A stretch of 64,000 nt of DNA from Roseofilum acuticapitatum BLCC-M154 (lineage in GTDB: Bacteria; Cyanobacteriota; Cyanobacteriia; Cyanobacteriales; Desertifilaceae), in assembly GCF_030068475.1 (NCBI RefSeq), contig NZ_JAQOSP010000147.1, positions 1 through 64,000 of the forward strand, given 5' to 3'. The position numbers and the translations under genes were made by a program. The notes under the pieces are model-generated. The model was not told where the DNA came from, searched no databases, and worked only from the letters and a program-made list of their open reading frames with translations. Every line of letters begins with the position of its first letter. Within the stretch, counting starts at the first letter, position 1. Positions 38,491-56,479 of this stretch are shown piece after piece.

Positions 38491-41111
38491 TATTCTATAA
38501 ACCCGCATTCCCTAATCTTTGATTGTAGCGCCTGGCACTCTTCAGGAAGGGGGATACCCACTTTGGTGGCTAACGCCTCGGCTTGGTAACAATAACTCAG
38601 GGCAAGGTCTAGATTGCCCAATGCTTGATGGAGTAAGGCAAAGTTTTTGAGAATGTAGACTTTATTTTTAGCATCACCGATATCAGTAGCAATATTCAAG
38701 GCAGCTTGCAAGGTTTCCTCTGCTTCTGAATAGGATTCCAGTTGGATTAAAGCTTCTCCTAGGTTAGACAGTGCTGTTGCTTCTCCAGAGCGATCGCCAA
38801 TTTCTCTAGTTATAGCTAAATATTGTTCAAAATACTGTTTAGCTTCTAAGTATTCTCCAAGAGAACCACAGACAGCCCCTAGATTACCAAATGCCCTTCC
38901 TTCACCGCAGCGATCGCCAATTTCTCTAGCCATAACTAAATGCTGCTGATGATACTCTCTTGCCTGTTGGTATTGTTCTAGAGCATAGTAGATAGCTCCC
39001 AAATTTCCCAGTGCCCCTTCTTCAGCATAGCGATCGCCAATTTCCCTAGTAATCGATAAACACTTTTGAAAATAGTCGTTTGCCTGTTGGTATTGTTCTA
39101 GAGAATAATATACAAGTCCTAGATTACCTAGGGATCTCCCTTCTCTAGAGCGATCGCCATTTTCCCTGGCAATGGCTAAATCCTGTTCATGAAAATCTAG
39201 TGCCCTGTCATATTGTCCTAGGGAATAGTACACAAGTCCGAGATTACCTAGCGCTTTCCCTTCTCTAGAGCGATCGCCATTTTCCCTGGCAATGGCTAAA
39301 TGCTGCTGATGAAAATCTAGTGCCTTGTCATATTGTGCTAGATTGTAGTATGCAGAACCTAAATTCTCATAACAAATCATATCTTCTTTAGGGGTTAATT
39401 TTCCTAAGAGGCTTTTATAAACTTCTATTTGTTCCCAATAATATCCTAAATCTCCAAGTCTAGACCCTAAATTAATGATTTGCCAAGCCTTTTCCCAATC
39501 GCCTAGTTGAGAAAAATGATAAAAACTCTCCAAGTATCCTTGCAACTTTTCTAAATGACTTGCACCGGGTTTAGGTTGATACTCAGTTAACCACATTTGA
39601 GCAGCAGCATACTCTACTTGTTTCCAATTTTCCTCTTCTTGTAGAGATTCTACAGCAACCCCACGAATTAGATAATGTTGCTGCAATAGCCCCTCTGTCC
39701 GTGTTTCCTGCACCAATGCTCGCAACTGCAAGAGTTGCAATGCTTGCCACGTTGTATCCTCTCCCCACTCTCTTCCCATCGCCAAATAAAATGACTCTTC
39801 CACCGGTTTCCGATAGACTGCTCCTCGCACCAATAAGCAATAAGCAACTCTTTGATCTTTCTTCAATCGGGATAACACCTCTCTTACCCGTTCTTTTACA
39901 CTTTGCTCCAACGTTTGATGTCGATTGTTAGAATCTTCCTCAGTAAAACTCTTACCAAACTTTCGCCAATACCGCTTGACATTCCCTTGAAACGGTTTAG
40001 CCAACAGTTCACTAACCACTACTTCAATAACTAAAGGATGTCCTTCAAACGCTCTCCCTATTTGCTGGAGATAGCCCAAACTCTCCTCATCTTCCGGGAA
40101 ATCAATCCCCTTATTCTCAAACCACTGGCGAAATAACTGCTGCTGTTCCATTTCCTCTAACCCTTCCAAACATTCCTCCTGCCAAAAATGATGCTGTTTA
40201 CATTGCTCAAACTGAGTTAACCTATCCTGAGACGTGATTATCACTCGACTCTCACAACTCTCCCCCACCAACAGCGCCTCAAACAACCGCCACCATCCCT
40301 CATCCGCAAACACACTATCCACCATTCGCCCCGTTTTCGACTGCAACAGTTTTTCCATGGAGTCAAACAGCAACAAATACCCTTCCTTCCGCAACTTCGC
40401 CACCACCTGATTAAACCCCTGTTGGCTTGGCGTTTGTGGGGGTAGGGGTTTCCCTGTCAACGTCTCCCAGAACTGGACTATAAAGCCGTCAAACCCCTGT
40501 TGCCAGCTCCCATCATCAAAATTGATCCGAATCGGTTTTAACCCCGTCTGAGCCAATTCTGTGACCGCTATACATTCCGCCAGCGCCGTCTTCCCCTGCC
40601 CCGTAATCCCGGTTACGATTAAAATCCGGCACTCTCCCCTGAGACTCTCCCCCAGTCTGCCACTCTCCTCCCGTCCCACCCAAGTCTGGGGACTGTAAGC
40701 ATAGGGGTTGAGCCGAAACTCACGAGGCGCTGGCGTTTCTGTTTTGTTCTCTGAGCTTTCCCCAGTCTGTTCTGTCTTATATCCTGCCTCTTCCAACCAA
40801 GTTGGTATATCCTCCCAATTCTTCAGCACGCCCTCTTCTTTATCCAACATCACCTCAACATAGCGATAGAGTCCCTTAGATAAAGCATCTCTAACGGTTC
40901 CTACCTTAACCCCTCGCGCCTCAGCTATCTCCTCTGGAGACTTCCACAATAACAACCCTCTAAGGTCGCACTGCTCTATAGGCGTTAAAGTTTTGCGCTG
41001 ATGAGGCAAATAGTTTTGCTTGGCTTCCCTCAATTTCTCACATAAAGTCTCTAGGTTCCACTGCTGCACCGCTTCTGTAAAGAGCTTATGGGATGGCGTT
41101 TTCGAGGACAT
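38490..41111 (-). CDS. STAND protein: N-terminal HTH, NB-ARC-type ATPase, C-terminal TPRs
   Basis: An 873-aa protein. Residues about 40-90 (TPIEQCDLRGLLLWKSPEEIAEARGVKVGTV, read as two helices) form a sigma-region-4-like HTH of the kind that precedes NB-ARC domains in cyanobacteria. Walker A is GITGQGKT (168-175), Walker B-like YLLLFDSME, and RVIITSQDR is the sensor region. A long helical linker leads to seven 40-residue TPR units such as LGNLGLVYYSLGQYDRAL from about residue 590 to 865, several with near-identical DNA including HIP1 sites. STAND proteins oligomerise on ligand binding. It is the first gene of a unit with a RelE-like toxin and antitoxin, which suggests regulation or defence, but no function is proven. 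Confidence 0.85.
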   Translation of the reverse strand: MSSKTPSHKLFTEAVQQWNLETLCEKLREAKQNYLPHQRKTLTPIEQCDLRGLLLWKSPEEIAEARGVKVGTVRDALSKGLYRYVEVMLDKEEGVLKNWEDIPTWLEEAGYKTEQTGESSENKTETPAPREFRLNPYAYSPQTWVGREESGRLGESLRGECRILIVTGITGQGKTALAECIAVTELAQTGLKPIRINFDDGSWQQGFDGFIVQFWETLTGKPLPPQTPSQQGFNQVVAKLRKEGYLLLFDSMEKLLQSKTGRMVDSVFADEGWWRLFEALLVGESCESRVIITSQDRLTQFEQCKQHHFWQEECLEGLEEMEQQQLFRQWFENKGIDFPEDEESLGYLQQIGRAFEGHPLVIEVVVSELLAKPFQGNVKRYWRKFGKSFTEEDSNNRHQTLEQSVKERVREVLSRLKKDQRVAYCLLVRGAVYRKPVEESFYLAMGREWGEDTTWQALQLLQLRALVQETRTEGLLQQHYLIRGVAVESLQEEENWKQVEYAAAQMWLTEYQPKPGASHLEKLQGYLESFYHFSQLGDWEKAWQIINLGSRLGDLGYYWEQIEVYKSLLGKLTPKEDMICYENLGSAYYNLAQYDKALDFHQQHLAIARENGDRSREGKALGNLGLVYYSLGQYDRALDFHEQDLAIARENGDRSREGRSLGNLGLVYYSLEQYQQANDYFQKCLSITREIGDRYAEEGALGNLGAIYYALEQYQQAREYHQQHLVMAREIGDRCGEGRAFGNLGAVCGSLGEYLEAKQYFEQYLAITREIGDRSGEATALSNLGEALIQLESYSEAEETLQAALNIATDIGDAKNKVYILKNFALLHQALGNLDLALSYCYQAEALATKVGIPLPEECQALQSKIRECGFIE

Positions 41112-48380: not shown

Positions 48381-48422
48381 AAAGAGTTCAGGATTGAGCT
48401 AAGATCAAATCCTGAACTCTTT
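48381..48422. repeat. Perfect 15-bp inverted repeat
   Basis: AAAGAGTTCAGGATT (48381-48395) pairs with AATCCTGAACTCTTT (48408-48422) around 12 bases. It lies 61 bp after the PhyH-type gene and overlaps the 3' end of the minus-strand ORF at 48405-48623, so it could be a bidirectional terminator, although T-runs are short. Confidence 0.65.
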
Positions 48423-48623
48423 ACACCGAATCATCCAGCAACAGACAAACGTCAGCAGCAACCAAACCGCAGCACACCCGAACCCAACAACCGGAGGAGC
48501 GGGAATCATCGGCTGGGTGTGACTGGGAACACTCACCCATTGTTGAATATGGGGGTCAACGAAGTTCGTTCCCAGGTTTTCCAGAGCTTCGCGTTGTCGA
48601 AATTTATCCTGTTGGTCTTCCAT
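48405..48623 (-). CDS. Possible small single-pass membrane protein
   Basis: A 72-codon frame starting MEDQQDKFRQREALENLG from ATG 48623, with AAGGTAGG nine bases upstream on the minus strand. The C-terminal third has APPVVGFGCAAVWLLLTFVCC followed by MIRCKEFRI (residues split here), a proline-preceded membrane anchor with a basic tail, faintly like PEP-CTERM sorting signals. The stop codon lies inside the loop of the 15-bp inverted repeat. I do not recognise the family; the 480-bp gap 48320-48802 shows no other gene. Confidence 0.4.
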   Translation of the reverse strand: MEDQQDKFRQREALENLGTNFVDPHIQQWVSVPSHTQPMIPAPPVVGFGCAAVWLLLTFVCCWMIRCKEFRI

Positions 48624-48802
48624 GATCAACCTACCTTGATTTGCTGTGTTGAGCGCATCATCGGTTTGGGGTAGGAGAGCGAAGCAAACGGTAGGTTACA
48701 TTGGCTCAAACCTGGCTATAATGGGAGTTAAGCCGGTTTGGGGTAGGACGTGGAAATTGGAAACCCCCCAAACTTTTTGTTGAATTTTGATTGAGTGCAG
48801 CG

Positions 48803-51800
48803 ATGCCGAGTAAAGATAAACTCACTTATGGGCCGACCGTAAAAAAACGTGCCAAACGGTTACTAGAGGCACTGTTGGCTTATGTTGATCGTGAATTAGA
48901 GGATGTTGATGGTATTGTGCTGGACTGTCGATGGAATGAGGAAAGGGGAGAGCAACCCCGGTTAGTTGTTGAGACGAAACTGAGAAAACTGGTTTATCTG
49001 ACCGAAAAAGATAGCTATGAGGGACACTTAACTAAAGAGCAGATTCGACAGGCACTTAACGATCATTTGAAGGAATTTTTGCAGATTCTGGAGGATAATC
49101 GAGCTAAAACTCAAGGTAACGAAGATTGGAATTTTACGCTCAAATTGTGGAGCAAAGACAAGCAAAAAAATTTAGAAGAGTTTGAGCGAGTCTGGGAAGA
49201 AAAGCGCCCAGCTAAATCGAAGCAACAGGAAAAAATTGGACAAGACGAGATTAGTGTTGAACCCCCTGAAGAGGGAATCAACTGGAAAGACCTCTGTAAC
49301 CGCGCCTTCTGGGAGGAGAAAACCCGGCGCAAGCGTGCCACGGAGAAGGGGCACGAAGTGCAGGTTTATGTGCCCTTGGGATTGGTGAAGCGCAAGCAGC
49401 AACCGCGACGGACGGAGGAAGAGATGCCGGAGGCGAAAGCGGGGATGCAGCAGTATCAACTGACGGAAAAGGAGATCGAAGAGCGCTACGAATACGAGAA
49501 ATTTTTAGCACAAGTTATCGGCAATGCGGGGGAAAATTTGGCGATTATTGGGGAACCGGGTGCGGGAAAAACGACCTGGTTAGACCAGATTGGGCAGAAG
49601 TTGATTAACACAGAACGTTATCCGATTTGGATACCCTTGGCGCGGTTGCAGGGGATGACGCTGGAGGCGTTTTTACTGGAGAAATGGTTAAAGGAAAAAT
49701 TGGGGGTTTTGCAGCCGACACCGGAACAGAAGGATGAGTTTATTGAGTGGTTTAAGACGGAGAAGGTGTGGGTATTGTTGGATGGTGCAGATGAAATGTC
49801 TGCGGCTAATCCCGTGGTGGAGATTCGCGAGTCGTTGACGGGATGGGTGAATCAAGCGCGGGTGGTGTTGAGTTGTCGGTTGAATGTCTGGGAAAGTAAC
49901 CTGACGACATTACAGGAGTTTGAAACCTATCGCACGTTATGTTTTGAACGGGAGCAGGTGGAGCAGTTTATTACCGCTTGGTTTGAGCGGGAGGAAGAAT
50001 CGGAGTTAGGGAAACAGTTGGCGCAGAGGTTGCAGGAAGCGGAAAGTGCCCGGATTTTGGATTTGGTGCGAAATCCCTTGCGGTTGTCTTTGTTGTGTCA
50101 GAGTTGGCGGTTGAATCCGGGGGAAATTCCGGAAACGAAGGCAGAGTTATATGAGAAGTTTTGCCGCAATATTTATGCTTGGAAACAGGATCGGTTTCCG
50201 ACGACGTTTGTGCAGCAACGGCAGTTAAATCAACAGTTGGCAGAGTTAGCGCTCCGGGGGATGAGGGAGAATGTGCCGTTGCTCGAATGGTTGGTGCATG
50301 AGGTGTTGGGGGATTGGGTTGAGTTAGCCAAAAATGTGGGCTGGTTGAATGTGGTTTATCGGGATACTTGCACCGATGAGCCAGTTTATGCCTTTTTCCA
50401 TTTGACGTTTCAGGAGTATTTTGCCGCTTGTGCAGTGGCAGATGGGCACTTTTTTCTGCCGTCGGATCATTCGCCCGAACAGCCTTCGAGCCAACCCTAT
50501 CGGATTTTTGAATCTCGTTGGCGCGAGGTGATTTTATTGTGGTTGGGACGTAGAGATGTGGAGAAGGAGAAGAAGAAAAGGTTTATTGAGACGTTGGTAA
50601 GTTTTAATGATGGGTGTTACCAGTTGTATTGGTATCGCGCTTATTTTTTAGCGGCTGAAGGAATTGCACAATATTCTGATTTTGAAGCTGTTACTCAATT
50701 CTTTGATACAGAATACTCGCTCGTTGATCAAATTATTCAGCAGATCATCCAATGGGCGTTAGGATACTTTGACGCTAATCGTCAGCAATGGATAACGTAT
50801 TTTCAGCCAATTGAGAAGACAGCAAAAACTTTTCTGGGCAAAACAAAACAGGATAAGGTGATTCAATTTCTCAGCCAGAATCTTGCACTCATGCTGACTG
50901 ATCGTGAAGATTGGGAAAAACAAGTTAATCAAGAGTTGTCGGGTTATTCTAACATCAGTGAAACTGAGCAGATGTTAATTCAGCAAAGTCTCGCTTATCT
51001 GAATTGGTTACAAAGCTATTCAGGTAAAGAGAAACTAATCTGGCAATTCTCAAATGCTTTAGGAACTCTATCTCCAGGTAATGAGTTAGCGATCTCCGGG
51101 TTGCTCAAAGTGATCGCTACCACTGAGGATGAAAATACCCGGCGGACGGCGGTAGTGCATTTAGGGGAGATCGCACCAGGCAACCCAGAGGCGATCGCCG
51201 GGTTGCTCAAAGTGATCGCTACCACTGAGGATGAAAATACCCGGAGGATGGCGGCAGAGAGTTTAGAGAAGATTGCACCGGGCAACCCAGAGGCGATCAC
51301 CGGGTTGCTCAAAGTGATCGCTACCACTGAGGATGAAGATACCCAGATGTGTGCGGCATGGAGTTTCGGGAAGATCGCACCGGGCAACCCAGAGGTGATC
51401 GCGGTGTTGCTCAAAGCGATCACTACCACTGAGGATGAATATACCCGGATGCGTGCGGCATGGAGTTTAGGGAACATCGATCCCGGCAACCCAAAGGCGA
51501 TCACCGGGTTGCTCAAAGTGATCGCCACCACTGAGGATCAATTGACCCTATGCTACGCGGCAAATTGTTTAGGGATCATCGATCCAGGCAACCCAGAGGC
51601 GATCGCCGGGTTGCTCGAACTGATCGCTACCACTGAGGATGAATATGCCCGGAAGCAGGCGGTAGCGATTTTAGAGTACATCGATCCGGGCAACCCAGAG
51701 GCGATCGCCGGGTTGCTCGAACTGATCGCTACCACTGAGGATGAAGATACCCGGAGGCAGGCGGCAGAGAGTTTAGGGAAAATCGCACCAGGCAACCCAG

Positions 51801-52846
51801 AGGAGATCGCCGGGTTGCTCAAAGTGATCGCTACCACTGAGGATAAAACTACCCGGCGGCTGGCGGCAGAGAGTTTAGGGAAGATCGATCCAGGCAACCC
51901 AGAGGCGATCGCCGGGTTGCTCAAAATTATCGCTACCACTGAGGATGAATCTATCCGGACGGGGGCGATAGAGAGTTTAGGGAAGATTGCACCGGGCAAC
52001 CCAGAGGCGATCGCCGGGTTGCTCAAAGTGATCGCTACCACTGAGCATGAATTTATCCGGAGGGAGGCGGTAGAGAGTTTAGGGAACATCGCACCCGGTA
52101 ACCCAGAGGCGATCGCCGGGTTGCTCAAAGTGATCGCCACCACTGAGGATGAACGTACCCGGTGGCGGGCGGTAGGGAGTTTAGGGAAGATCATCACCAC
52201 CAACCCACAACGCCAAAGTGTGGTCTCTGCTCTCCAACCTCACCTGAGCAATGAAACCCACAAAAACAACTTTGACCTCTTTGAAAACTGCTACAAACTC
52301 CTCTGGAACATTGCCCAAGACCTCCCCTACCCCGACTTCTACCGCGCTTGGCATCATCTCCACACTGCCCCCCATCCCGAAGTCGCCGATCAAACCCCCG
52401 TGGGCAAAACTGCCCTCACCGACACCCTCAACGCCCAACTCCTTGACCTCCCCAACCAACTGCACCCCACCCCCCACACCACTCCCGTCTGTGTCGATAT
52501 CCAACACTTAACCACCATTACCGATGAAGATAAACTCGCCAAAGCCTTGAGTAACCGCATCTTTAAGCAGCTCTTCCCTGGGCAAACCCTGCCGAAAATT
52601 AGCGACTGTTTCGACCTGGAAACCGAACTGATCAACGCCCAACCCCGCCCCCACATTGCCCTAATTCTGCACAACGGCGACCCCCAAGAGTCCCTCCTGC
52701 ATCTGTGCCAGTTCCTCGCTCCCACCGTCTCCATTGCCTGCATTACCCATACTCCCCTGGATGCTCCCCTGCGCGGCTTCCCCCCAGATCAGGAGAACTT
52801 GGTATCCGCGCTGCAATCTTGGCTGGAACAATTCAATGAACAATGA
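48803..52846 (+). CDS. NACHT-domain STAND protein with HEAT-like repeats and C-terminal alpha/beta domain
   Basis: A protein of 1347 aa from ATG 48803 (an in-frame TTG lies at 48791). Residues 1-130 are a conserved N-terminal module (LTYGPTVKKRAKRLLEALL, LTKEQIRQALNDHLKEFL) seen with cyanobacterial NACHT proteins. NACHT: Walker A GEPGAGKTTW (about 251-260), Walker B VWVLLDGADEM (about 322-332) and FHLTFQEYFAA (winged-helix end). About 762-1130 comprises 11 HEAT-like repeats of 34 residues. The last 200 residues form an alpha/beta domain (VCVDIQHLTTITDEDKLAKAL, PHIALILHNGD) of the NACHT C-terminal type. Bacterial NACHT proteins are known in anti-phage defence and signalling; the function here is not proven. 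Confidence 0.9.
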   Translation: MPSKDKLTYGPTVKKRAKRLLEALLAYVDRELEDVDGIVLDCRWNEERGEQPRLVVETKLRKLVYLTEKDSYEGHLTKEQIRQALNDHLKEFLQILEDNRAKTQGNEDWNFTLKLWSKDKQKNLEEFERVWEEKRPAKSKQQEKIGQDEISVEPPEEGINWKDLCNRAFWEEKTRRKRATEKGHEVQVYVPLGLVKRKQQPRRTEEEMPEAKAGMQQYQLTEKEIEERYEYEKFLAQVIGNAGENLAIIGEPGAGKTTWLDQIGQKLINTERYPIWIPLARLQGMTLEAFLLEKWLKEKLGVLQPTPEQKDEFIEWFKTEKVWVLLDGADEMSAANPVVEIRESLTGWVNQARVVLSCRLNVWESNLTTLQEFETYRTLCFEREQVEQFITAWFEREEESELGKQLAQRLQEAESARILDLVRNPLRLSLLCQSWRLNPGEIPETKAELYEKFCRNIYAWKQDRFPTTFVQQRQLNQQLAELALRGMRENVPLLEWLVHEVLGDWVELAKNVGWLNVVYRDTCTDEPVYAFFHLTFQEYFAACAVADGHFFLPSDHSPEQPSSQPYRIFESRWREVILLWLGRRDVEKEKKKRFIETLVSFNDGCYQLYWYRAYFLAAEGIAQYSDFEAVTQFFDTEYSLVDQIIQQIIQWALGYFDANRQQWITYFQPIEKTAKTFLGKTKQDKVIQFLSQNLALMLTDREDWEKQVNQELSGYSNISETEQMLIQQSLAYLNWLQSYSGKEKLIWQFSNALGTLSPGNELAISGLLKVIATTEDENTRRTAVVHLGEIAPGNPEAIAGLLKVIATTEDENTRRMAAESLEKIAPGNPEAITGLLKVIATTEDEDTQMCAAWSFGKIAPGNPEVIAVLLKAITTTEDEYTRMRAAWSLGNIDPGNPKAITGLLKVIATTEDQLTLCYAANCLGIIDPGNPEAIAGLLELIATTEDEYARKQAVAILEYIDPGNPEAIAGLLELIATTEDEDTRRQAAESLGKIAPGNPEEIAGLLKVIATTEDKTTRRLAAESLGKIDPGNPEAIAGLLKIIATTEDESIRTGAIESLGKIAPGNPEAIAGLLKVIATTEHEFIRREAVESLGNIAPGNPEAIAGLLKVIATTEDERTRWRAVGSLGKIITTNPQRQSVVSALQPHLSNETHKNNFDLFENCYKLLWNIAQDLPYPDFYRAWHHLHTAPHPEVADQTPVGKTALTDTLNAQLLDLPNQLHPTPHTTPVCVDIQHLTTITDEDKLAKALSNRIFKQLFPGQTLPKISDCFDLETELINAQPRPHIALILHNGDPQESLLHLCQFLAPTVSIACITHTPLDAPLRGFPPDQENLVSALQSWLEQFNEQ
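51089..52200 (+). repeat. Eleven 102-bp tandem repeats encoding HEAT-like units
   Basis: Each unit starts GCGATCGCCGGGTTGCTC and contains GATCGCTACCACTGAGGATG, then a variable triplet block, then GGGAAGATCGCACC and GGCAACCCAGAG. The period is 102 bp (34 residues). The units differ little except in the codons after the ACC CGG (Thr-Arg) position. HIP1 lies in most copies. The antisense frames over this region are open only because of the repeat and are not genes. Confidence 0.92.
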
Positions 52847-52862
52847 ACAATGAACAATGAAC
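52835..52862. repeat. Heptamer tandem repeat (AATGAAC)x4 at the NACHT stop codon
   Basis: Four exact copies of AATGAAC cover the last codons and the TGA stop (52844-52846) of the NACHT gene. Heptamer repeats of this kind (STRR-type) are a feature of cyanobacterial genomes. Changes by one unit would move the frame but TGA recurs in the next units. Confidence 0.88.
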
Positions 52863-52930
52863 AATTAATCTCAAATTTGATATAACAAGAGGGAAGCACC
52901 CTCCTCAATGGTAAAATCAAGCGCCTCTAT

Positions 52931-53902
52931 ATGGAATTTATCAATCCCAAAACCGATTTCGCCTTTAAGCGCATCTTTGGTTCCCAAGAAAGCAAAGATA
53001 TCCTCATTAGCTTCTTAAATGCCCTCATTTATGCCGGAAATCCAACCATTCAAGACCTAGATATCATCGATCCCTACAATCAAGGGGAGAGTAGTGGACT
53101 CAAAGATAGTTATCTGGATGTCAAAGCCGTTCTAGGCAACGGTACAACCGTCCTGATTGAAATGCAAGTGCTAAATGTCCCCGCATTCAAAAAGCGAGTG
53201 TTGTACAACTGGGCAGAAACCTATGGCAATCAACTGAGCATGGGAAAACCCTATGTAGGATTGCAACCGGTTATTGCCCTAACAATTGTGGATTTTACCC
53301 TGTTTCCCAAGGCAGAAAAGATCATTACCCACTTTTCCTTACAAGAGAAAACCCTCTCCTTTGACTATCCTGACGAACAGAGCGAACTGATCTTTGTGGA
53401 GCTAAGAAAATTTAATAAATCCCTGGAAGAACTGGAAACACTGACGGAAAAATGGATTTATTTTATGAAGGAAGCGCCCAATTTACAGATGATTCCCAGT
53501 TCTCTCGAAGAAGTGCCAGAAATCGGCAAAGCCTTGGGAATTGCCAATCGAGCTAATTTGAGTCCGAAGGAAGCAGAAGAGTTAGAGAGAAAGGAACGGT
53601 GGCTCCTTGACCAGCAGGGTTATGTGGTGCAAGCGAGGATAGAAGGACGTGAAGAAGGACGCGAAGAAGGACGTGAGGAAGGACGTGAGGAAGGACGTGA
53701 GGAAGGACGTGAACAAGGTCGGGCTGAGGCCGCATTGGGATTAATTTTGCGTCTACTTGAGCGACGGTTTGGAGAGGTTCCTGAAGCGACTTTAGCCCAA
53801 ATCCAACAGTTGTCTTTAGAGGATTTAGATGAGTTGGGGATTATGATCTTGGATTGGACGAGTATAGAGGATTTAAACCGTTGGTTGAGGGAGAGGGGGT
53901 AA
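52931..53902 (+). CDS. Rpn family PD-(D/E)XK nuclease/transposase-like protein with DUF4351 end
   Basis: A 323-aa protein. The N-terminal part (INPKTDFAFKRIFGSQESKDIL, SYLDVKAVLGNGTTVLIEMQV) is that of the Rpn/PDDEXK-2 family, with D and E-x-Q at the nuclease site. RpnA-type proteins promote recombination and cleave DNA; they are also linked to phage defence. A run of EGRE repeats at about residues 236-260 comes from a 12-bp tandem repeat (53640-53715). The last 60 residues (LRLLERRFGEVPEATLAQIQ) match DUF4351. It begins 84 bp after the NACHT gene. Confidence 0.88.
   Translation: MEFINPKTDFAFKRIFGSQESKDILISFLNALIYAGNPTIQDLDIIDPYNQGESSGLKDSYLDVKAVLGNGTTVLIEMQVLNVPAFKKRVLYNWAETYGNQLSMGKPYVGLQPVIALTIVDFTLFPKAEKIITHFSLQEKTLSFDYPDEQSELIFVELRKFNKSLEELETLTEKWIYFMKEAPNLQMIPSSLEEVPEIGKALGIANRANLSPKEAEELERKERWLLDQQGYVVQARIEGREEGREEGREEGREEGREEGREQGRAEAALGLILRLLERRFGEVPEATLAQIQQLSLEDLDELGIMILDWTSIEDLNRWLRERG
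53640..53715 (+). repeat. 12-bp tandem repeat encoding EGRE units
   Basis: Six or so copies of GAAGGACGTGAG/GAAGGACGCGAA in frame within the Rpn-like gene give EGREEGRE repeats. Such runs are common between the nuclease and DUF4351 parts of these proteins and vary in length by slippage. Confidence 0.88.
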
Positions 53903-56180: not shown

Positions 56181-56334
56181 TATATAGTAAACCTAAATGA
56201 GTTGTGTAACGATTGCCCCTCATCCCCCTACCCCCTTCTCCCACAGGAGAAGGGGGAAAGTCAAGAATCCCGTGGGAGAGGGATTCAGGGAGAGGGCATT
56301 TCCTATGGCACAACTCATTTAGACTAGCTATATA
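56181..56334. mobile_element. MITE-like inverted-repeat element downstream of recQ
   Basis: CTAAATGAGTTGTG (56193-56206) and CACAACTCATTTAG (56309-56322) form a perfect 14-bp terminal inverted repeat; TATATAG and CTATATA extend it outward. Between them are CCCTTCTCCCACAGGAGAAGGG and CCGTGGGAGAGGG palindromes, the type also seen at 21557-21608. It has no ORF. It fills most of the 312-bp gap recQ-icd; the remaining 145 bp before icd should contain its promoter, and I found no convincing box pair. Confidence 0.65.
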
Positions 56335-56479
56335 TTAAAAGTTTCTTTTTGAAAAAAGCGCGATAAACCTGGAAAAAAGATAAATCCTTGACCCCTTTGC
56401 CAAAAGGATCTGGTAGTCTGGTACGTGCTTAACCGAACACTCGTAAGCACAAATCCTTAATCTCAGGAATGATTACCCT

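Follow-up and report, generated by a model that had tools for sequence, protein, structure and literature searches.

The stretch analysed here (the window) comprises 64,000 nucleotides (nt), positions 1 to 64,000 of contig NZ_JAQOSP010000147.1 from Roseofilum acuticapitatum BLCC-M154 (NCBI RefSeq assembly GCF_030068475.1; 5.22 Mb in 154 contigs, 99.84% complete), and carries at 48791-52846 a gene of this cyanobacterium whose predicted product is, by its domains, a NACHT/STAND-type bacterial NOD-like receptor (NLR). Its features are probably best explained by a receptor with a constant switch, a HEAT-face sensor, an adaptor and a sensor that can be swapped, and a linked membrane partner. The sequence of the gene and its comparison with relatives directly reveal the domain order, an excess of amino acid change restricted to one face of the repeats, the replacement of modules, and a small, conserved transmembrane (TM) gene that accompanies a subclass of such NLRs. 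The features are:

48405-48623, minus strand: small open reading frame (ORF) of 72 aa with one predicted TM helix, divergent to the NLR gene; unlabelled family
48791-52846, plus strand: NLR-like gene, 1351 aa; TTG start, with an in-frame ATG at 48803 as the likelier start
48830-49201, plus strand: EAD4 adaptor domain (residues 14-137; Pfam)
49258-50664, plus strand: constant block 1, including the NACHT switch; 92% nt identity to the same-genus genome G005
49538-49990, plus strand: Pfam NACHT (residues 250-400)
51089-52210, plus strand: sensor of 11 HEAT units of 102 nt; hypervariable columns 16, 19, 20, 23 and 27 in each 34-aa unit
52177-52869, plus strand: constant block 2, 92% identical in nt to G005; it comprises the array end, NCC-H and the NCAB1 tail and runs beyond the stop codon
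52268-52354, plus strand: NCC-H domain (residues 1160-1188; Pfam)
52424-52831, plus strand: NCAB1 domain (residues 1212-1347; Pfam)

The Pfam domains of the product run in the order EAD4, NACHT, HEAT_2, NCC-H and NCAB1, with HEAT_2 matching six stretches of the protein. The NACHT assignment of the first-pass annotation, made from the letters of the window, is borne out by PF05729 (E 1.4e-10; 41.7 bits against a cut-off of 26.7) and by this architecture; the translation also contains the P-loop GEPGAGKTT, and EAD4 (PF19959) matches with an E value of 8.5e-39. The window is cyanobacterial, as are all 13 plasmid records with a match. The NLR plan is thus present, with an N-terminal adaptor (EAD4) before NACHT and a C-terminal repeat sensor (HEAT_2) after it.

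The array consists of 11 units, each exactly 102 nt (34 aa) long with zero indels. The repeat number of 11 and the series of residues preceding the conserved Ala (T, M, C, R, Y, Q, Q, L, G, E, R) had been given correctly by the first-pass annotation, and that residue, column 20, is indeed the most variable (entropy 3.10 bits). Yet it is not mainly one position that varies, as had been claimed, but five: columns 16 (2.91 bits), 19 (2.22), 23 (2.22) and 27 (1.87) are also hypervariable. Of the two preceding residues said to vary as well, column 19 does so, whereas column 18 is Arg in 9 of 11 units. Column 15 is Glu in 9 of 11 and hence not hypervariable. The DNA outside the variable block is less uniform than the "almost identical" first reported: mean pairwise nt identity between units is 88% across the 28 codons outside six columns that correspond to randomised alphaRep positions (below) and 85% outside codons 18-20, compared with 50% across the five hypervariable codons; individual unit pairs share 74-91% of nt, and mean pairwise amino acid identity is 69% (0.69). 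At bases 1-2 of codons 16 and 20, units differ in 0.69-0.76 of pairs, against a random-base expectation of 75%, while scaffold sites differ in 0.11-0.12. Variability along the helix is periodic (permutation p 0.0025 for the variability moment).

The positions of these columns coincide with the binding surface of a designed repeat family. A phmmer search against PDB sequences returned 25 distinct matches (best 4zv6, E 9.6e-20), 14 of them alphaRep proteins by name or by an alphaRep paper; the alphaRep unit is 31 residues long. Reading the register from the phmmer alignment (ED-x-x-VR-x-x-AA-x-ALG-x-I against DE-x-TR-x-x-AA-x-SLG-x-I) places columns 15, 16, 19, 20, 23 and 27 at alphaRep positions 18, 19, 22, 23, 26 and 30. 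These are the positions randomised in the alphaRep library, whose HEAT-like repeats bind via the concave face that carries them (PMC3754942). The five hypervariable columns therefore correspond to 19, 22, 23, 26 and 30, that is, five of the six randomised positions. The chance that the top five columns fall within the six is 6/278,256 (2e-5) over 34 columns and 6/2,002 (0.003) within a 14-residue helix, odds to be read with the caveat that the register was fixed by the conserved motif only after the variable columns were known. A single-sequence AlphaFold2 model (mean predicted local distance difference test score 79.9, predicted template modelling score 0.60) has two helices per unit, the second helix of the first unit spanning columns 15-28. 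On a helical wheel of this helix, variability points to 94 degrees and hydrophobicity to 244 degrees, approximately 150 degrees apart. We infer that the variable columns are exposed on the concave face; the exposure anticipated by the first-pass annotation is thus upheld by the alphaRep register and the helical wheel rather than by model coordinates.

The six alphaRep columns served as an outside definition of the face, and selection was assessed by counting methods in 16 distinct arrays with at least 6 units, near-duplicates having been merged from 31. These arrays are not independent: several come from one genome, different analyses draw on overlapping sets, and two of the arrays were used to train the profile. 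In the window array, the nonsynonymous proportion of differences (pN) is 0.47 at the face and 0.12 at other columns, and the synonymous proportion (pS) is 0.13 overall, giving pN/pS of 3.63 at the face and 0.88 elsewhere; the bootstrap bounds of face pN minus pS lie above zero. Face pN/pS exceeds 1 in 12 of 16 arrays and non-face pN/pS in all 16; in 7 of the 16, face pN minus pS stays positive at its 5% bootstrap bound. Face entropy is likewise higher than that of the remaining columns in 16 of 16 arrays, with unit detection blind to the face columns, and the face was more variable in 17 of 17 arrays whether all columns or only seven anchor columns were scored. Among the 14 arrays with more than 50% identity, mean variability ranks columns 16, 20, 19 and 23 first, followed by 30 and 27.

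The same face changes between species. Four positional repeats, two of them partial, can be compared with the same-genus genome G002, in which the counterpart array is split over two contigs that both end inside it. Residues differ in 15 of 24 alphaRep cells and 16 of 105 others (Fisher p 7e-6), with changes in 4 of 4 cells at each of columns 16, 20 and 23, 2 of 4 at column 19, 1 of 4 at column 27 and 0 of 4 at column 15. In the positional end repeats (scaffold dS 0.13 and 0.18), the ratio of nonsynonymous to synonymous divergence (dN/dS), taken over 12 face codons in each, reaches 2.68 and 1.84, while the scaffold gives 0.63 and 0.44; the NACHT block (0.26) and the tail (0.21) are lower still. 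The first-pass suggestion of a rapidly changing recognition face thus agrees with the excess of pN over pS, the alphaRep mapping and the different residues in this one relative; nor are the residues the same in all strains, as those of G002 differ. Positive selection, for which the first-pass annotation proposed a test at column 20, is suggested by these counts for the face as a group (pN 0.47 against pS 0.13; dN/dS 1.84-2.68).

Beyond residue changes, whole modules have been replaced. Window and G005 share three constant DNA blocks: 48399-48617, which is the small ORF at 48405-48623, 49258-50664 and 52177-52869. The NACHT block (dS 0.173) and the tail (dS 0.147) are each 92% identical in nt (by BLAST for the former), and four stretches elsewhere in the window match G005 at 88-95%; the constant blocks thus diverge like ordinary genes. 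Between them, the sensors have no orthologous alignment (40-49% nt in most 50-residue bins), and the N-terminal domains have no local alignment (41-45% when alignment is forced). The breakpoints are sharp at residue 156/157 and lie near 620 and 1147 for the sensor. G002, 94% identical to the window over 49258-51287, combines the window sensor type with a G005-type N-terminal domain (70% aa identity), which also occurs in G001 (64%) within a decayed copy. EAD4 is present in the window copy only among the four genus copies; the other three carry an unlabelled domain there, for which six weak relatives were found (E 3e-4 to 9e-4), one of them a 286-aa stand-alone protein without any Pfam family on scanning. 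These comparisons indicate that the whole sensor and, separately, the N-terminal adaptor were replaced between constant blocks. The G001 copy (L206, G001:C84:14900-29100) is in pieces with stops, and the small TM ORF adjoining it looks intact.

A survey of 12 gene pairs, two of them iSTAND genes, by nt identity in 75-residue bins shows that sensors have also been replaced in two or more genera besides this one. Apart from window/G005, two cases are clear: G454/G370 (0.73-0.98 before, 0.45-0.60 in and 0.90-0.99 after the sensor) and G353/G040 (0.87-0.99, 0.37-0.48 and 0.73-0.95). Weaker cases are G398/G444, with 0.71-0.79 between flanks of 0.86-0.99 and 0.94-0.96, and G368/G041, in which part of the NACHT block is at 0.75-0.96 and identity is low elsewhere (N-terminus 0.43-0.52, sensor 0.40-0.55, tail 0.46-0.69). 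The remaining five NLR pairs are too divergent overall for exchange to be judged; in one of them, G350/G370, the N-termini are unlike (0.43-0.45) and the NACHT block is at 0.80-0.93. Neighbouring genes tested for synteny lie on different contigs in the relatives and are hence uninformative on mobility.

The small ORF upstream encodes a soluble part followed by one hydrophobic helix. It has no Pfam family above cut-off and no PADLOC match, NCBIfam and PHROGs lying outside the search. The four genus copies differ from one another with a dN/dS of 0.20-0.63, which makes it very likely a real gene. Matches to the family occur at 38 places in 31 of 195 genomes, the source genome included. A divergent NACHT region adjoins 28 of the 38 (4 of these 28 being the genus copies of this gene), and 26 of these regions are no more than 1 kb away. 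The large divergent ORFs contain NACHT (27 of 38), NCC-H (22), NCAB1 (21), HEAT_2 (20), EAD4 (19), TRADD-like_N (10) and iSTAND (3). The 10 matches without NACHT comprise three unlike the family, one with a tail match only, three with no match to this NLR in the surrounding stretch, and three beside one kind of gene, represented by the EAD4-iSTAND gene L181 (to which L180 and L190 are 79% and 84% identical in aa). Counts out of 38 include three matches (G017, G369 and G418b; E 4.5e-4, 4.6e-3 and 8.4e-3) that do not fit the family and were left out of the protein alignment. The 35 aligned proteins share the motif KQREALEN..NFVEP and a TM segment W-L-L-L-T, and in 32 of them a 19-residue stretch reaches a mean Kyte-Doolittle value of 1.6. 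Arrays of at least five units are present at 14 of the 38 loci, and in all 14 the face is the more variable part. At locus L065, too, an EAD4-iSTAND ORF accompanies a small-family match.

The functions proposed here (the ligand, the role against phage and that of the small protein) we infer from these patterns. The HEAT solenoid would be the sensor, its concave ligand-binding surface lined by five residues from the second helix of every unit; the ligand would be a variable protein, and diversification of the face would alter specificity. Ligand binding might release the NACHT switch, so that the protein oligomerises via ATP exchange, after which EAD4, to which recruitment of other effectors is ascribed (PMC7159879), or a substitute adaptor would bring in an effector. 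The executor, or its membrane platform, may be the linked small membrane protein, and the outcome would be cell death or membrane damage that limits phage. Retention of the small protein even where the adaptor differs argues for contact with a constant part of the NLR. A fuller version, in which a plug-in receptor with constant NACHT and NCAB1 activates a small TM executor (KQREALEN-NFVEP) and exchanges its adaptor and a sensor of alphaRep-like HEAT units, is put forward tentatively and seems to us doubtful as a whole.

Several observations weigh against the proposed receptor. None of the best 50 of 1,459 Foldseek matches in the PDB is an alphaRep protein; they are HEAT/ARM and other helical-repeat proteins (with low query-normalised TM-scores of 0.26-0.47), and the alphaRep link is consequently one of sequence. 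In the 14 arrays above, fifth place in the mean ranking goes to column 30, which is not one of the alphaRep columns, and in arrays other than that of the window, the alphaRep set supplies only 1-4 of the five most variable positions. The scaffold pN/pS of 0.88 in the window array means that purifying selection is visible between species only. No second EAD4 was found in the source genome (1 match at E <= 0.001; more distant copies are possible), which leaves no cognate EAD4 effector, contrary to the EAD-pairing rule; it also makes the small TM protein the best candidate for executor or membrane platform. The small gene is itself found beside EAD4-iSTAND genes in other cyanobacteria (e.g., L181). 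Within the flanks examined, it is present at 3 of 29 NACHT loci of relatives and 6 of 27 EAD4 loci, and it was not detected near the paralogous array on contig C105 of the same genome. No family match was present in the stretches around two plasmid-borne NACHT relatives, on pAQ7 of Picosynechococcus sp. PCC 7002 and pn3 of Nostoc sp. UHCC 0926; a tblastn search of one family member against all plasmids gave three weak Cupriavidus matches only (E 0.4). By these counts, the small TM gene marks only a subclass of these NLRs. Finally, face pN is not above pS in 4 of 16 arrays, in one clearly below, and the window array may contain assembly errors, with a genome in 154 contigs and a G002 counterpart broken by contig ends.

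Four other explanations were weighed. The receptor might serve self/non-self (allorecognition) or sense an endogenous partner, its face reading polymorphic proteins of kin or competitors. Fungal NLRs have the same signature, with repeats under positive selection on the concave side (PMC4986451), and no sequence feature separates this function from phage sensing; as bacterial NACHT proteins are described as antiphage (PMC12169576), we regard it as rather unlikely. Alternatively, the face columns could be unconstrained surface that varies through relaxed constraint, as the four arrays with face pN below pS would allow. This is unlikely given a window face pN that exceeds pS by a factor of 3.6 (the bootstrap bounds of pN minus pS both being positive), near-random bases at codons 16 and 20 beside a conserved scaffold, and face dN/dS of 1.8-2.7 between species (12 codons each). 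A collapsed or chimeric short-read repeat array, to which the fragmented assemblies just mentioned would lend themselves, is very unlikely: the reading frame is open across all 11 units, the face is more variable in each of 15 other arrays, and some of these come from genomes of 1-6 contigs (G041, G017, G333, G009). Editing of the units by a diversity-generating retroelement (DGR) or silent cassettes is largely refuted and most improbable of all: codons 16, 19 and 23 do vary at bases 1-2 with base 3 identical in 10 of 11 units, and the genome has six RVT_1 matches, but no silent cassette, mutagenic template or near-identical unit was found in the genome (40 of 42 candidates scored), where the four other matches to the units are 66-71% identical and all lie on C105, and adenines are not favoured among the variable sites (differences at 0.18 for consensus A and 0.22 for G). 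The C105 array (L043, 8616-10562, G000:C105) has 18 well-scoring units with two-state ends, IGQGN/IDPGN, and lies near a contig end.

The diversity of the proposed receptor could instead arise from ordinary mutation and selection on the face, together with homologous recombination that swaps modules, with the constant NACHT block, tail and upstream gene as arms; mutation, selection and whole-module recombination between constant arms would suffice. Between-unit pS (0.13) is close to the dS of the NACHT block against G002 (0.127), and the array was therefore amplified or homogenised roughly at the split of the window species and G002. On these values, the frequent conversion or unequal exchange suggested by the first-pass annotation is not demonstrated.

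Several known systems resemble parts of this one. EAD conflict systems (Kaur et al., 2020; PMC7159879) share the EAD4 adaptor on a STAND/NACHT core, the combination of constant with rapidly varying modules, and a setting in multicellular prokaryotes; they differ in the pairing for which no second EAD4 was found here (E <= 0.001), and the sections of that paper drawn on here do not mention hypervariable HEAT faces, exchange of a sensor lying between NACHT and NCAB1, or this small TM partner. Fungal NLRs, as described in part of PMC4986451, share a nucleotide-binding oligomerisation domain with repeats, few diversified concave positions per unit and assorted effectors, whereas the window protein has HEAT units, a bacterial host and a constant C-terminal tail after the repeats. 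The few diversifying concave positions of the fungal type are found in the window array as well, by counting methods; fungal repeats were chosen for analysis at >85% internal conservation (PMC4986451), and the window units, at 69% aa identity, fall below this. The likeness to fungal NLRs drawn in the first-pass annotation therefore holds for an NLR-type sensor with a diversified face, as a match in pattern only. With alphaRep, the window array shares the repeat register and hypervariability at five of six randomised positions (PMC3754942), but alphaRep proteins are engineered stand-alone binders, whereas the window has natural 34-aa units fused to a NACHT switch. The antiphage protein bNACHT25 (PMC12169576) is likewise NACHT-centred and links detection to response; the window NLR, judged by sequence, has an adaptor in place of an in-cis effector. 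DGR-diversified STAND sensors share a STAND/NACHT receptor with a diversified sensor in multicellular bacteria, but their C-type lectin target and adenine mutagenesis, as given in the cited portion of PMC10907252, are both absent from the window.

Searches of the open-licence PubMed Central literature, which leaves out preprints and subscription papers, turned up no bacterial NLRs described as having such a HEAT-face pattern, an exchanged sensor or this small TM family. The original observation is real. Compared with its first description, the case is stronger in having a defined putative binding face, which recurs in other arrays and also stands out in the comparison with a related species; it is weaker in that variation is not confined to one column, the DNA is not near-identical and conversion is unproven. 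The findings suggest that the specificity of a bacterial innate receptor evolves in two ways simultaneously, through single residues of a concave HEAT face and through replacement of the entire sensor between constant blocks, a dual mode that resembles reports for fungal NLRs. Since alphaRep already puts this scaffold to use, natural arrays of this kind could be mined for binders. The most useful lead is the unlabelled small-protein family linked to the NLR, since the effector that EAD-type NLRs lack may be sought there as a specific candidate open to testing.

Other repeats and elements lie nearby in the window. Downstream of the NLR gene, 52931-53902 (plus strand) encodes a PD-(D/E)XK nuclease family transposase (PDDEXK_2 and DUF4351) that contains a tandem repeat of 12 nt; same-genus genomes have multiple copies of it at 64-85% nt identity. 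At 56183-56335 there is a dispersed element of approximately 150 bp with dozens of matches in the same-genus genomes G003 and G005, and 38780-39342 contains 120-nt tandem repeats (74-89% matches), possibly encoding another repeat protein.

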